Source of the DNA: Gemmatimonas sp.
GTDB taxonomy: Bacteria > Gemmatimonadota > Gemmatimonadetes > Gemmatimonadales > Gemmatimonadaceae
DNA: 64,000 nt
Assembly: GCF_021298855.1 (NCBI RefSeq)
Contig: NZ_JAJTHI010000043.1
Coordinates: forward strand, 1 to 64,000
Reading direction: 5' to 3'
How positions within the stretch are numbered: the first letter of the stretch is position 1; each line of letters begins with the position of its first letter. The position numbers and the translations under genes were made by a program. Of the stretch, positions 1,606 to 42,106 are shown one piece after another. The notes beneath the pieces are model-generated. The model was not told the DNA's origin. It saw only the letters and a program-made list of their open reading frames with translations, and searched no databases.

Positions 1606-3519
1606 GTGACTGATTTTCTGGAGCGCCTCCAGCGCGCCTTGGACCCCGGGTTTCACATCGACCGGGAACTCGGTGGCGCCGGCATGTCGCGGGTATTCGT
1701 GGCGACCGAACGGGCCCTCAACCGGACGGTGGTCGTGAAGGTGCTGCCGCCGGAGCTCGCGGCGGGCATGAATGTGGAACGCTTCCGCCGCGAGATCCAG
1801 CTGGCAGCGCAGTTGCAGCACCCGCATATCGTGCCGCTCATTGCCGCGGGCGATGACCACGGGTTGCTCTGGTTTTCCATGCCCTACATCGAGGGGGAGT
1901 CGCTTCGTGGCACCCTCACCCGTCACGGGCGGCTCTCGCCCCGCGACGTGGTGCGCATCCTGCACGATGTGGTCGACGCCCTCGCCTATGCCCATGGACG
2001 TGGCGTGGTGCACCGGGACATCAAGCCCGACAACATCCTCACGTCGGGTATGCACGCACTGGTCACCGATTTCGGGGTCGCCAAGGCGCTGAGCGCCTCG
2101 GTGCCGGTGCACAGCGGCACGAGCACCGGCATGGCGATCGGCACGCCGGCCTACATGGCGCCTGAGCAGCTGGCGGCGGACCCGGCCGCCGACCATCGCG
2201 TGGACCTGTACGCCGTGGGGCTGCTGGCCTACGAGCTGCTCACCGGCAAGAGCCCGTTCAGCGGGGCCTCACCACAGGCCACCTTGGCGGCCCAACTGAC
2301 GGTCATGCCGGAGCCACCGCATCGTACGGTGAGCGACATCCCCGAGCCGCTGTCTGAGCTCATCATGCACTGTCTCGCCAAGGATGCGGCCAAGCGCCCC
2401 CAGACGGCGCAGGCGCTCCTCGCCACCCTCGAGGCGCTTCCGCCCATGTCGGGACATTCACTCGGCGTGCGCGGGCCCTCCAGTGTCTTTGCCGGGCCCC
2501 GACGTGCCCGCGCGCTTGGCGCGGCGGGCGCCGTGGCCGTGCTTGGCGCACTGCTCTGGGCCGTCGTGCCCGACCGCCCGCCTCCACGTGGCGTGGCGGA
2601 CTCGCTGGAGGCACGTGACGCCGGTCCGGGTGGCCGCACCGGGACGCCCCTCACCGCACCGGCCGAGCCGACGGCCGGTGCGCAGACCGACTCCAGCGCG
2701 GCGCCTCGCCTCGCCGATGAAGCCCCCATGGAGGCGGTGACGCCGTTCGTGATCACACGGGCCGAATCGCTGGCGATTGCCGCGGCGGTAACCCGGCGCC
2801 AGCGCAGCGCGGAGACCCGCGGCGCGACGCCAACGGCACCGGCCGCCGACAGCACCCGGATCGATCGCACGCTGCTGCTCGCCGAGGTGGGTCGCATCTT
2901 CGCCGACTCCATGACCCGTGCGATCAGGGCGATGGAGGTCACGCTGGCCAACGCGCCGCGCTTCGTGCGGCCGGAGATGTCGCCGGCCGACGCGGGGAGT
3001 GGCGTACCGTCGTTGGCGTTCGACGCCCGCAGCGCCTCGCGGCCGAACATGCCCGTCGCGCCACTCATGGCGCCACCTGCCGACGGCCGCCTGCGCATCG
3101 TGGTGGCCGCCTTTACCAATGCCACGGGCAGGCGTGACGTGAGCGCGCTGGCACGGAGCGCGGCCAGCGAACTGCGCGAGGCCATCCCGGCGGATCGGTT
3201 CGAGGTGGTACCGGCTGACGTGACCGAACGGGCCACCCGCACGCTCCCCGACAAGATGTCGGTGGGCTGGGCGCTGCGCGCCGATTATGTCGTGAGCGGA
3301 TGGGTCATCGCCCGCGGCGATTCGGTGGCGATGGTGACGATGCTGACCGATGTCCGCACGGGACGCTTCACGCGGGCGACCGAAGGCGTGACCACGGCCG
3401 AAGCCGGTACCGCGAAACCGGTGGATGCGGCGAAGAAGCAGATGAGTGCGTGGCTGGACACGGCCGCCACCCTCGCCGCCCGTCGGCGCGCGCCGGAGAC
3501 GGTGAGGCGTGAGCACTGA
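1606..3519 (+). CDS. Receptor-like Ser/Thr protein kinase
   Basis: A 637-residue protein with a GTG start. The N-terminal half is a Hanks-type (PknB-like) kinase: glycine loop GGAGMSRVF at 23-31, ATP-binding Lys45, catalytic HRDIKPDN at 136-143, DFG at 155-157 and APE at 185-187, so it looks active. One transmembrane helix at about 302-321 separates it from an outer region: a Pro/Ala/Thr-rich linker and then a folded domain from about residue 490 (RLRIVVAAFTNATGR onward, with GWALRADYVVSGWV) that resembles the TolB-amino-terminal-like sensor domains attached to such kinases. Expected role is membrane signalling; the ligand is unknown. It stands alone, with 173 bases before it. Confidence 0.88.
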   Translation: MTDFLERLQRALDPGFHIDRELGGAGMSRVFVATERALNRTVVVKVLPPELAAGMNVERFRREIQLAAQLQHPHIVPLIAAGDDHGLLWFSMPYIEGESLRGTLTRHGRLSPRDVVRILHDVVDALAYAHGRGVVHRDIKPDNILTSGMHALVTDFGVAKALSASVPVHSGTSTGMAIGTPAYMAPEQLAADPAADHRVDLYAVGLLAYELLTGKSPFSGASPQATLAAQLTVMPEPPHRTVSDIPEPLSELIMHCLAKDAAKRPQTAQALLATLEALPPMSGHSLGVRGPSSVFAGPRRARALGAAGAVAVLGALLWAVVPDRPPPRGVADSLEARDAGPGGRTGTPLTAPAEPTAGAQTDSSAAPRLADEAPMEAVTPFVITRAESLAIAAAVTRRQRSAETRGATPTAPAADSTRIDRTLLLAEVGRIFADSMTRAIRAMEVTLANAPRFVRPEMSPADAGSGVPSLAFDARSASRPNMPVAPLMAPPADGRLRIVVAAFTNATGRRDVSALARSAASELREAIPADRFEVVPADVTERATRTLPDKMSVGWALRADYVVSGWVIARGDSVAMVTMLTDVRTGRFTRATEGVTTAEAGTAKPVDAAKKQMSAWLDTAATLAARRRAPETVRREH

Positions 3520-3545
3520 GCGGGAGAATGGAGTGGCCCGAGGCT

Positions 3546-3578
3546 GAGAATCGAGCCGGGATCGCGGTGAGAGTTGAG
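3546..3578 (+). repeat. Left arm of inverted repeat flanking the four-helix-bundle gene
   Basis: This 33-base arm matches the reverse complement of 4067-4099 at 30 of 33 positions. It begins five bases beyond the stop codon of the four-helix-bundle gene. The core contains gagccgggatcgcggtgaga. Similarity continues less perfectly into the outer flank (ggagaatgg...cccgag). Confidence 0.75.
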
Positions 3579-3583
3579 AGAGC

Positions 3584-3961
3584 CTACGGGTGGTCCGGCT
3601 TGGCGAGCACGTGTTTGCGGAAGCCGAAGGTCATGCGACGGACTTCGATGACTTCGTCGATCAGGGGTTCGTCATGGGCCGCGATGATGTCGAGGGCGCG
3701 AGCGAGTCGAAGTTGCAGCTCGACCTCATTGCAGGAGCCGATGGCGGTGTTGCAGAGGGCGGCGACCTTGGCGGGCGACGGATGGCCGGTGCCTTCGGCG
3801 AGGTTGAGCGCAATCGAGTTCACGGCACGCAGCAGCTGATTGCGCATACCGGGCGACAACCGCGCCATGGCGTCCTGTGCCTGATCGGCCATGCGATGCA
3901 CGTCGACCGAGAGAGCGAACGCGCGCTGCACGACCTTGAGCGAGAGTGGGTTGTGGGTCAT
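3584..3961 (-). CDS. Four helix bundle protein (23S rRNA intervening-sequence protein family)
   Basis: A 125-residue all-helical protein of the four-helix-bundle family first described as proteins encoded in 23S rRNA intervening sequences. Diagnostic stretches are LLRAVNSIALNLAEGTGH, an NTAIGSCNEVELQLRLA segment, and a basic C-terminal helix (FRKHVLAK). Members are related to the Avd accessory protein of diversity-generating retroelements, but no reverse transcriptase is nearby. The start is the ATG at 3961; a GTG at 3979 would add six residues. The gene lies between the arms of a near-perfect inverted repeat and next to a tandem array of a related 22-base motif, which suggests a small mobile or formerly mobile unit. 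Biochemical role of the family is unknown. Confidence 0.82.
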   Translation of the reverse strand: MTHNPLSLKVVQRAFALSVDVHRMADQAQDAMARLSPGMRNQLLRAVNSIALNLAEGTGHPSPAKVAALCNTAIGSCNEVELQLRLARALDIIAAHDEPLIDEVIEVRRMTFGFRKHVLAKPDHP

Positions 3962-4044
3962 CCGCCAGGATAGGCGCACGCGGCCAACGAGGTGTCACCC
4001 GAATCCCTCGCGTTGTATCACGCCAACGCACCCGCGTCGTCCCC

Positions 4045-4110
4045 CTCGACGCTCACCGCGAGCCCGCTCAATTCTCACCGCGATCCGGGCTCGACTCTCG
4101 GGCTCACCAT
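4045..4110. repeat. Degenerate 22-base tandem repeat with right arm of the inverted repeat
   Basis: Three head-to-tail copies of a ctcrayTCTCACCGCGAncc-like unit are visible: 4045-4066, 4067-4089 and a decayed copy at 4090-4110. Further ctcaactcgcattctcac-type remnants run to about 4145. The middle copy and its neighbour form the right arm (4067-4099) that is inverted relative to 3546-3578. Nothing else in this interval looks coding. Confidence 0.65.
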
Positions 4111-4152
4111 CTCAACTCGCATTCTCACTTCTCGGATCTCACGTCTCATGGG

Positions 4153-4206
4153 GCAGGAACGACACAGGGGGCGGACCTTTCGGCCCGCCCCCTGTGTCAT
4201 TCCTGC
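4153..4206 (-). terminator. rpoC terminator, 22-bp stem
   Basis: Arms 4153-4174 and 4185-4206 pair over 22 positions with a single mismatch, leaving a 10-base loop. The stem lies immediately after the rpoC stop (4209 on the minus strand) and can act in both directions. It ends the secE-to-rpoC block and insulates it from the four-helix-bundle unit. Confidence 0.8.
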
Positions 4207-4208
4207 TC

Positions 4209-7200
4209 TCACTCGTCCGGCATGGTGAATGCCGACGGTTCGAAGCTCGGCAGCAGCGCATCGAAGTTGGGTTCGATCGCTTCCGGCAGCGGCTCCGGCT
4301 CGGGGAGGGCATCGCTCTCGACGTCCACTTCCTGGTAGCGGTACATGCCCGTACCGGCCGGGATGAGGTGACCGATGATGATGTTCTCCTTGAGCCCCAG
4401 CAGGTCATCGCGCGAGCCACGAATGGCCGCGTCGGTGAGGACGCGCGTGGTCTCCTGGAAGGAGGCCGCGGACACGAACGACTGCGTGGTGAGCGAGGCC
4501 TTCGTGATGCCAAGCAGCAGGGGCTCCGCCGTGGCCGGCGTGATCTTCCGCTTCTTGGCGTCCTCGTTCGTCTCCCGGAAGACCGCGCGATCGACATGCT
4601 CGCCCTCGAGCATCTCGGTGTCGCCCGAATCCACGATGCGCACCTTCTGCAGCATCTGCTTGACGATCACGCCGATGTGCTTGTCGTTGATCTTCACGCC
4701 CTGCAGGCGGTAGACCTCCTGGACTTCGTTCAGGAGGTACTCCTGCACCGCGCGCGGCCCCTTGATGCGCAGAATGTCGTGCGGGTTGACCGGGCCCTCG
4801 CTGATGCGGTCACCGGCGCGCACACGGTCGCCCTCGTGCACGCGCAGGTGCTTGCCGGACGGCACTTCGTACACCTGCTCCGCCTGGCTTTCGTCCACCT
4901 GCCACACGCCGCGGTCGATGACGGCCGGGCGCACGAACACCTCGCGCTTGCCGCGCTTGATCTCGCCGAACCGCACGAACCCGTCCACCTCGGAGATCGT
5001 CGCCGGGTCCTTCGGCCGGCGCGCCTCGAACAGCTCGGCCACGCGCGGCAGACCACCGGTGATGTCGCGGGTCTTGTATGCCTCGCGGCTGATCTTGGCC
5101 AGAATGGTGCCGGCCTTGATCTCCTCGCCATCCTCGATCGTGATCACGGCGCCCACGGGCAGGATGAAGTCGCGCACGCGCTTCTCCTTGCCGCCCTTGT
5201 TCTGCCAGATCTCGATGTGCGGGTGCAGCTTCTTCTCGCGGTCTTCGATCACGACGCGCTGACGGAGACCCGTGAGTTCGTCGAGTTCCTCGGCCAGCGA
5301 TTCGTCTTCCACGAGGTCCACGAAGCGCACCGTTCCCTCGACATCCGCGATGATCGGATTCGAGTACGGGTCCCACGTGAACACCGTGTCTTCCTTCTTC
5401 ACGGCCTGGCCGTCCTCGACCATGAGGTACGCGCCGAGCGGTACCTGGAGGCGCGCCTCGATGGCCGCGTTCTTGTCGGCCGACGCCTTGATGATGAGCT
5501 CGCCTTCGTACGACGTCACGACCTTCTGGCCGTCCGGGTTCACGACGGTCACGAGACGGTCGCCGAACTCGATGACACCGGCCTTCTTGGTCTTGCGCGC
5601 CGTCTGTTCGGCGATACGCGCGGCGGTGCCACCGACGTGGAAGGTCCGCAGCGTGAGCTGCGTGCCCGGCTCACCGATGGACTGCGCGGCGATGATGCCC
5701 ACCGCCTCGCCCAGATCCACCATCTGCATGGTGGCCAGGTTTCGGCCGTAGCACATGCGGCAGAGGCCGCGCTTGGCTTCGCAGGTGAGCACGGAACGGA
5801 TCTTCACCGTTTCGATGCCCGCGTCTTCGATGCCCTGCGCCGTTTCCTCCGAAATGAGCGAGCCCGCCTCGACCAGCAGACGCGGACGGCCGGCCTCATC
5901 GCGCTCCATCGGATCGTACACATCCTCGGCCGCCACGTTGCCGACGAGACGCTCGGCGAGCGGCTCGATCACGTCTTCGCCTTCCTTCAGCGCCGCCGTG
6001 TCGATGCCCAGGATGGTGCCGCAATCCTCTTCGGCAATCGTCATGTCCTGCGCGACGTCCACCAGACGACGCGTGAGGTACCCGGCGTCGGCCGTCTTGA
6101 GCGCCGTGTCCGCGAGCCCCTTGCGCGCCCCGTGCGTGGACGAGAAGTACTCGAGCACCGACAGCCCTTCACGGAAGTTCGACTTGATCGGATTTTCGAT
6201 GATTTCGCCGATACCACCCGTGAGCTTCTTCTGCGGCTTCGCCATGAGGCCGCGCATACCGGCCAGCTGGCGGATCTGGTCGCGGCTACCGCGGGAGCCG
6301 GAGTCGAACATCATGAACACCGGATTGAAGCCGCCCTGCGACTCGCGCATGGTCTTCACCATGGCGTCGGCAATGTCGGTGTTCGCGTGCGTCCACGTGT
6401 CGATGACCTTGTTGTAGCGTTCACCGTTCGTGATGTTGCCCGTCGCGTAGGCGCGCTGGAAGCGCTCCACGCGCTCCGACGCCTCGGTGAGCAGGACCTG
6501 CTTCTCCTTGGGGATGTGCAGGTCTTCGATGCCGATGGAGACGCCGCCGCGCGTCGCGTTGCGGAAGCCGAACTCCTTGAGACGGTCGAGCATGGCCACC
6601 GTCTCCGCGAGCCCCGCCGAGCGGTAGCTCTCGAACACCAGTTCGCCGAGCGCCTTCTTCTTCATGTCCTTGTTCAGGAACGGCAGTGCCTTCGGGACGA
6701 TGCCGTTGAACATGACACGTCCGGCGGTGGTGCCGATCCATTCCGAGCCCGACTCGGTTTCCAGGCGCCAGCGGATGGGCGTCTGGTAGTTGGCACGGCC
6801 GTTGGCGATCGCCATTTCCACTTCCGACGCGCTCGCGTAGGCCGGCAGCGTCTTCACGAAATTGGGATCTTCCTTCTTCTTGTCGAAATCGGCCGAGGGC
6901 GCCTTGGTGGCCACGTAGCAGCCCAGCACGATGTCCTGCGACGGCTCGGCCACCGGACGACCGTCCGACGGCTTGAGGATGTTGTTCGAGGAGAGCATGA
7001 GCACGCGCGCCTCGATCTGCGCCTCGAACGAGAGCGGCACGTGCACGGCCATCTGGTCACCGTCGAAGTCGGCGTTGAACGCCGTCGTCACGAGCGGGTG
7101 AATGCGAATGGCCTTGCCTTCCACCAGCACCGGCTCGAACGCCTGGATGCCCAGACGGTGGAGCGTGGGCGCGCGGTTGAGCAGCACGGGGTGGTCCTTG

Positions 7201-8525
7201 ATGATGCCTTCCAGCACCTCGTACACCATCGCGTTCTCGCGCTCCACGATCTTCTTGGCGCGCTTCACCGTCTCCGCTTCGCCACTCTCCACCAGCTTGT
7301 GGATGATGAACGGCTTGAAGAGCTCGAGCGCCATGGCCTTCGGCAGGCCGCACTGGTGCAGCTTGAGCTCCGGCCCCACGACGATGACCGAACGGCCCGA
7401 GTAGTCCACGCGCTTGCCGAGCAGGTTCTGACGGAACCGGCCCTGCTTGCCCTTGAGCATGTCGGAGAGCGACTTGAGCGGGCGCTTGCCGCGGCCACGG
7501 ATGGCCTTCGAGCGGCGCCCGTTGTCGAACAGGGCGTCGACGGCTTCCTGCAGCATGCGCTTCTCGTTGCGCAGAATGACTTCCGGCGCGCGGTGCGAGA
7601 TGAGCTTCTGCAGGCGGTTGTTGCGATTGATGACGCGGCGGTACAGGTCGTTCAGGTCCGACGTCGCGAAGCGGCCGCCATCGAGCGGCACGAGCGGACG
7701 GAGGTCGGGCGGGATGACCGGGATGACGTCGAGGATCATCCACTCCGGACGATTGCGGATTTCGCCGCCCTCGCCCGACGTGCGGAAGGCATCGACGATC
7801 TTGAGACGCTTGAGCATCTGCTTCTTGCGATGCTGGCTCGTCTCGCCCACCACGGAGCCCCGCAGCTCCTCGGCCGTCTTGTCGACGTCGAGGCGCTTGA
7901 GCAGTTCCCGCACGGCCGGCGCGCCGATATCGCACTGGAATACCGTGTCGCCCTCGGCCTTGGCCTTCTGGCGCAGCGTGAGGTACTCGTCCTCGTCGAG
8001 CAGCTGGCGCTCACGCACCTCCTGATTGCCCGGCTCGATGACGATGTAGTTGCTGTAGTAGATCACCTTCTCGAGGTCACGCAGCGTGACGTCGAGCAGG
8101 TTGCCCATGGGGCTCGGCAGGGTCTTGAAGAACCAGATGTGCGCAACCGGCACGGCCAGTTCGATGTGGCCCATGCGCTCGCGCCGCACCTTGCTGAGCG
8201 TGACTTCCACGCCGCAGCGGTCGCAGATCACGCCGCGGTAGCGGATGCGCTTGTACTTGCCGCAATGGCATTCCCAGTCCTTCACGGGACCGAAGATGCG
8301 CTCGCAGAACAGGCCGTCCTTCTCGGGCTTGAAGGAGCGGTAGTTGATGGTTTCGGGCTTGGTGACTTCGCCCCACGACCACCAGGTGCGCAAGCCGGCC
8401 ATCTCCAGCCGCTCGCGCTCCTTGGGGTCCTTCGGGCCGCGGATCTCTTCCGGAGAAGCGATGCGGACCGACATGTAGTCGAACGCCGACGCGCGGGCCT
8501 CGCGCGAGCTGCGGAAATCGATCAT
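4209..8525 (-). CDS. rpoC: DNA-directed RNA polymerase subunit beta'
   Basis: A complete beta' subunit of 1438 residues. It has the first zinc-binding domain ([13 protein letters not shown]...CDRCGVEV, near residues 86-108), the catalytic NADFDGD loop that chelates the active-site magnesium, the bridge helix/trigger loop region ([22 protein letters not shown]), the second zinc site (CGTIL...[11 protein letters not shown]) and the conserved [15 protein letters not shown]. Length is within the normal range, and the C-terminus is an acidic tail. It follows rpoB after three bases on the same strand, so it is translated from the rpoBC message. A strong hairpin follows the stop. Confidence 0.97.

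Positions 8526-39910: not shown

Positions 39911-42106
<2,196 letters not shown>

Follow-up and report, generated by a model that had tools for sequence, protein, structure and literature searches.

An IVP/S23 gene between inverted repeat arrays beside rpoC in Gemmatimonas: a possible selfish protein–repeat system

Introduction

What kind of genetic element consists of one small gene held between inverted repeats at the 3′ end of rpoC? The question is raised by a 64,000-nt stretch of Gemmatimonas sp. DNA (the window), in which a gene of the 23S rRNA intervening-sequence protein (IVP/S23) family and its flanking arms had been read in either of two ways: as a non-autonomous mobile element of small size, or as a gene with regulatory repeats of its own. 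To our knowledge, IVP/S23 proteins have had no assigned role since rRNA intervening sequences were described.

Within rRNA intervening sequences, IVP genes are bounded by inverted repeats and have long been suspected of mobility, with the open reading frame (ORF) serving that mobility (PMC4990558). Heptameric STRR arrays are another class of repeat, represented by GGGAATC in Xanthomonas and GGGGA(T/C)T in Nostoc; no protein partner has been described for them, and the Xanthomonas arrays are often inverted convergent pairs (PMC4692102). A 2018 survey placed heptamers first in abundance among the tandem repeats of prokaryotic intergenic DNA and reported no clear clue to their function (PMC6344855).

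The window's unit is one of nine in its genome in which an IVP/S23 gene lies between inverted arrays of short G-rich repeats. On our preferred reading, which we hold at a probability of about 0.5, such units would constitute a selfish protein–repeat system that works like REPIN/RAYT with an unrelated, Avd-like protein. That IVP genes occur in association with inverted arrays of repeats is well supported.

Results

The ORF of the gene extends over 3584–3979, being open from a GTG at 3979 and closed by a stop codon at 3584–3586, and its likely start is the ATG at 3961, where the starts of aligned orthologues agree (Table 1). As predicted, the product belongs to the IVP family, scoring 66.3 bits against PF05635 (23S_rRNA_IVP; cut-off 33.8) and 69.4 bits against TIGR02436 (cut-off 24). 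Its AF2 model (pLDDT 88.6) reaches TM values of 0.77 and 0.75 to the S23-family structures 2rld and 2gsc, respectively, and comparison with these structures predicts that their four-helix-bundle fold is present in the window's protein. The model also resembles Avd (4dwl, 8ub7), more weakly, with a Foldseek probability of ~1.00 and E-values of 0.06–0.5. No transposase lies between the arms, in agreement with the original prediction.

Table 1. The IVP unit and its surroundings at the rpoC 3′ flank, in coordinates of the window
Feature	Position	Strand	Basis
IVP/S23 four-helix-bundle gene	3584–3961	−	Profile matches, orthologue alignment, AF2 model
5′ arm, on the upstream side of the gene; heptad-like in part and G-rich on the coding strand	4062–4147	−	Inverted match to 3496–3583
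3′ arm, on the downstream side of the gene and C-rich on the coding strand; outer end overlaps the kinase gene's final codons	3496–3583	−	Inverted match
Two neighbouring 22-nt repeat units in the 5′ arm	4041–4084		77% identity
Spacer from 5′ arm to start codon; candidate place for promoter and ribosome-binding site	3962–4061	−	Spacing in related units
Terminator-like hairpin of rpoC, just beyond the unit	4153–4206	−	25-nt arms 92% complementary, 4-nt loop
rpoC, flanking gene	4209–8525	−	ORF; C-terminal part 87–99% identical in most relatives

The core arms (3546–3578 and 4067–4099) match in inverted orientation at 30 of 33 positions, exactly as had been claimed, and they are the only such pair in the window: across all 64 kb, no other pair of 33-mers spaced within ~1.1 kb reaches 28/33. 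The arms exceed 33 nt, extending to 44 nt at 84% identity (3540–3583/4062–4105) and, in a gapped alignment, to 88 nt at 72% (3496–3583/4062–4147), with the outer part of the 3′ arm running into the last codons of a protein-kinase-like gene (ORF 1606–3519, stop codon 3517–3519). The right arm had further been assigned to a 22-base tandem array at 4045–4110. Two units of this array hold up, with 17/22 identical positions in the 4045–4088 register; the third matches at 4/22 and is out of register, and Tandem Repeats Finder called no array at the window's 5′ arm. Read on the minus strand, the outer arm fits degenerate heptads better (TGAGACG TGAGATC CGAGAAG TGAGAAT). Elsewhere in the window, at 39968–39999, a perfect 14-nt tandem (GCGGGGAGCGGGAG) corresponds to two G-rich heptads and has no IVP link.

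Comparison of the rpoC 3′ flank among relatives, with orthologous sites located through RpoC C-termini, disclosed a polymorphic site. The IVP unit lies on the rpoC strand in the window's genome (G000) and in G015, G042, G005 and G017, and on the opposite strand in G004, G012, G001, G019, G041, G024 and G023; a single inversion suffices to account for these orientations on the RpoC tree. At the same site, G021 carries a gene-less hairpin with the arm sequence of an IVP unit found at another place in the G021 genome, and G045 a decayed remnant of the unit that is intact in its sister G019. Neither gene nor repeats are present there in G010, which is nested among carriers in the RpoC tree, and the same holds for G020, G011 and G044. 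A unit that never left a single locus and had no further copies would, on the terms of the original prediction, have refuted mobility; the relatives show the opposite. The terminator-like hairpin of rpoC is found 3′ of the gene in relatives with and without the IVP unit. Divergence among the relatives at the rpoC site is too great for the unit ends to be fixed, and the duplicate units of G005 yielded no clean ends, as they sit within long repeat arrays. At the G005 rpoC 3′ flank (L127), a near-perfect gene-less hairpin (GTCCAGCAACGCAGAAGTGAGCGGCGAGGCCC...) lies within the arm region of the IVP unit, forming nested hairpins.

Arm match scores range from 35 to 94 within a unit and mostly from 7 to 27 between species (except between sister species, with one pair at 36), indicating that complementarity is kept while the sequence turns over. 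The IVP protein itself is under purifying selection, with dN/dS values of 0.09–0.23.

The initial view of an isolated single unit proved too narrow: the genome (G000; 4.09 Mb, 91 contigs) contains nine PF05635 genes, eight of them besides the window's own, and IVP genes are generally associated with inverted arrays. Four of the nine are located where contigs stop, which would be expected of genes whose surrounding repeats break assemblies. Each IVP gene read has its own repeats on both sides, inverted or, less often, direct. In a repeat scan covering 0.97 Mb of this genome, every one of the seven inverted pairs scoring ≥27 at a spacing of 400–600 nt has an IVP gene inside it, and the repeat sequence differs from pair to pair; the only further pairs detected score 24. 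Across the genus, the inverted-repeat scores of most IVP flanks far exceed those of 1500 random positions, many reaching p ≤ 0.001, the control positions having been drawn without matching to intergenic DNA.

The repeats also occur without the gene. The 27-nt core of the window's arm is found at four further sites lacking an IVP gene, three of them as hairpins, and the flanks of most units in this genome have additional matches elsewhere in it. Outside the unit loci, 29 gene-less long hairpins were detected; 18 match IVP-arm families, compared with 28 of 2000 random intervals (Fisher p = 2 × 10⁻²⁴), and the other 11 have no IVP-arm family match. At least seven of the nine units occupy the same locus in the sister species G015, which suggests that gene copies move rarely here. 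The first interpretation is borne out in part: the variable rpoC site and the further copies favour mobility, but gene copies seldom move here and the unit is not unique. Protein subfamilies and repeat families appear to covary over all pairs; once same-locus pairs are removed, the signal is weak and is carried by few cases. Strict heptads are not enriched in this genome (0.63 per 100 kb), the arms using longer degenerate units. In L014, the window's repeat recurs at ~1480–1535, directly ahead of a putative transposase-like reading frame.

One alternative, which corresponds to the second of the two initial readings, is that the arrays act in cis, with the arm stem insulating, terminating or processing the IVP transcript (for example, through RNase III), the job of the gene being unrelated to the repeats. 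The unit indeed folds better as RNA than its shuffles do (−302.7 versus −266.4 kcal/mol, z −4.1), RNase III cuts the stems of rRNA intervening sequences (PMC4990558), and the arms stay near the start and stop codons, the left arm of related units usually ending 55–130 nt ahead of the start and the right arm beginning 0–30 nt past the stop. Yet a private regulatory repeat leaves unexplained why the same repeat families recur as gene-less hairpins at many other sites, and heptad arrays occur far from IVP genes, so we regard a purely cis-acting role as unlikely. Under the preferred protein–repeat reading, units with the gene would be autonomous, and the gene-less hairpins would depend on them.

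The movement of IVP units is visible in cyanobacteria. Near-identical units (mostly 97–99%; L299–L310) occur at unrelated sites of the cyanobacterium G128, within MITE-like elements with the TIR ACTGAYGTTACGCA, and 5-bp target duplications (TAATA, TAGTA, TACTA and AATTA) accompany 7/7 sites at which both ends were found. This TIR has 43 occurrences in G128, some of them as short gene-less pairs. A second MITE family with an IVP gene is represented in G110 by two 99.8% identical units at different sites (L312, L313), with ends GGGCTGTTTCATTCT and TA flanks. These moving ends are ordinary transposon-like TIRs located outside the heptad arrays, and a conventional transposase supplied in trans is the probable mover in G128 and G110. 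For the window's unit, no TIR with target duplication was found, and no such ends were seen in its genus; target-site duplications, which the original prediction had proposed looking for, were found at the near-identical units of G128 and not in the genus. Many IVP frames in G128 are cut by another inserted, heptad-bearing element.

The IVP gene could on this evidence be a passenger: inverted repeats or MITEs moved by ordinary transposases would pick up IVP genes together with heptad arrays, and the protein would have no part in movement. The ACTGAYGTTACGCA TIRs of G128, with their 5-bp duplications and their sharing with short gene-less pairs, fit this explanation, as do the different TIR and TA flanks of the G110 units. 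It accounts poorly for an association that spans many phyla and includes Gemmatimonadota-type loci where no such TIR is seen; moreover, the repeated enclosure of one small family is unexpected for random cargo, and the IVP protein is under purifying selection. We consider the passenger explanation improbable and retain the selfish protein–repeat system as the preferred reading.

The association was then followed in 80 IVP loci from Acidobacteria, Planctomycetes, Proteobacteria, Chloroflexi, Cyanobacteria, Verrucomicrobia and others, collected with a closer IVP sequence set, the full diverse alignment having no conserved stretches. Within this wide set, which like the other wide samples favours the best-scoring IVP subfamily, lag-7 self-identity beside the IVP gene was 0.358, the controls giving 0.257, and the signal recurred at lags 14, 21 and 28. 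The corresponding values were 0.437 versus 0.263 in cyanobacteria, 0.391 versus 0.254 in Gammaproteobacteria and 0.324 versus 0.268 in the window's genus, where the heptads of the window's arm are degenerate and none was called by Tandem Repeats Finder. The flanks are polar: GC skew upstream of the IVP gene is positive (G-rich) at 70/79 loci of the wide set, 27/30 in cyanobacteria and 27/29 in Gammaproteobacteria, and downstream flanks are C-rich at 71/79 loci of the wide set, with a control mean skew near zero. In 64–79% of loci, the sequence upstream of the gene, compared with the reverse complement of the sequence downstream of that gene, gives a match above the 95% level of other loci; direct, non-inverted matches are much rarer in the same comparison.

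Such flanks bear on a further explanation, in which arrays arise anywhere by replication slippage and IVP genes merely sit in tolerant intergenic DNA. The prevalence of heptads, which outnumber all other tandem repeats in prokaryotic intergenic DNA (PMC6344855), and their presence in some genomes without IVP accord with slippage, which nevertheless leaves unexplained the matched, inverted IVP flanks, the polar skew and the fact that IVP genes alone are enclosed in the sampled genome; we disfavour it as very unlikely. Heptad arrays off IVP loci were found in 17/20 samples of IVP-rich cyanobacterial genomes versus 6/20 of IVP-less ones (p = 0.001), the IVP-rich set having been picked for high IVP number and the two sets not being phylogeny-matched. 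The link in cyanobacteria is strong, not absolute, as the six IVP-less samples with arrays include genomes in which a second model, too, finds no IVP: G092, G122 and G124 (L376, L387, L388) carry many heptad arrays and no IVP by two family models, which means that the protein is not needed to keep arrays. These genomes may have lost the IVP gene, or their heptads may have another partner; within 20-kb samples of IVP-less cyanobacteria, no other gene between inverted heptads was convincing.

Three gammaproteobacterial IVP loci (L338, L344, L347) have a sequence that by eye is tRNA-Gln-like at most ~70 nt past the downstream array. The 1.5-Mb genome G508:C1 (L348–L350) gave eleven weak IVP-family hits, mostly near-identical and clustered near contig ends; their assignment as rRNA intervening sequences was dropped, the stretches read having no Rfam rRNA match.

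Discussion

Several known systems share features with the window's unit. The 23S rRNA intervening sequences of Coxiella and Leptospira likewise contain an IVP-family ORF between stem-forming inverted repeats, within a total of ~0.4–0.6 kb; in contrast, the window's unit lies outside rRNA genes, between rpoC and a kinase-like gene, its arms are repeat arrays with gene-less relatives, and nine different units occur in one genome. REPIN/RAYT (TnpA-REP) is similar in having a protein gene with repeats on either side, gene-less inverted pairs of that repeat scattered through intergenic DNA, and several families per genome. Here, however, the sole gene is that of a four-helix bundle, with no HuH/Y1 transposase, the arms are tandem arrays instead of 20–40 nt REP palindromes, and copy number is lower. 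STRR heptameric repeats are G-rich 7-nt tandem arrays, mostly intergenic and in Xanthomonas often in inverted convergent pairs, a periodicity that is clear at IVP loci of other phyla and degenerate in the window's arm; the present arrays differ in bounding an IVP gene. MITEs, too, are short, with inverted ends and no transposase, and the G128 and G110 copies lie within MITE-like elements; the defined ends and target duplications seen in G128 copies have no counterpart found at the window's unit. Avd of diversity-generating retroelements has a related fold, but neither a reverse transcriptase nor TR/VR lies beside the window's unit, whose neighbouring ORFs are rpoC and the kinase-like gene.

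In diversity-generating retroelements, Avd binds nucleic acid and reverse transcriptase. By this relationship, we infer how the IVP protein may act on the repeats, from binding to action in trans and the involvement of an enzyme: it would bind the folded repeat, either as a DNA hairpin or as an RNA stem, and together with host enzymes would help its cognate hairpins to be copied, to expand and to spread. The intervening sequences of 23S rRNA, likewise bounded by inverted repeats and IVP-coding, would then be units of this kind that came to reside in an rRNA helix.

A wider proposal, which we put forward tentatively and with more doubt than belief, is that IVP/S23 proteins are the missing partners of bacterial heptameric arrays and hairpins, together making up a widespread selfish class convergent with REPIN/RAYT, built on an Avd-like non-nuclease protein and including rRNA intervening sequences as a special case. 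Such a link may give common, unexplained bacterial repeats their first protein partner, and if IVP genes are the protein half of heptad repeats, the role of each becomes testable. It would also describe a route by which bacteria gain intergenic hairpins beside essential genes such as rpoC. Within the open-access literature, we found no paper making the IVP/heptad link. Xanthomonas campestris, the best-described heptad case, has an IVP of solved structure, XCC0516 (PDB 2gsc).
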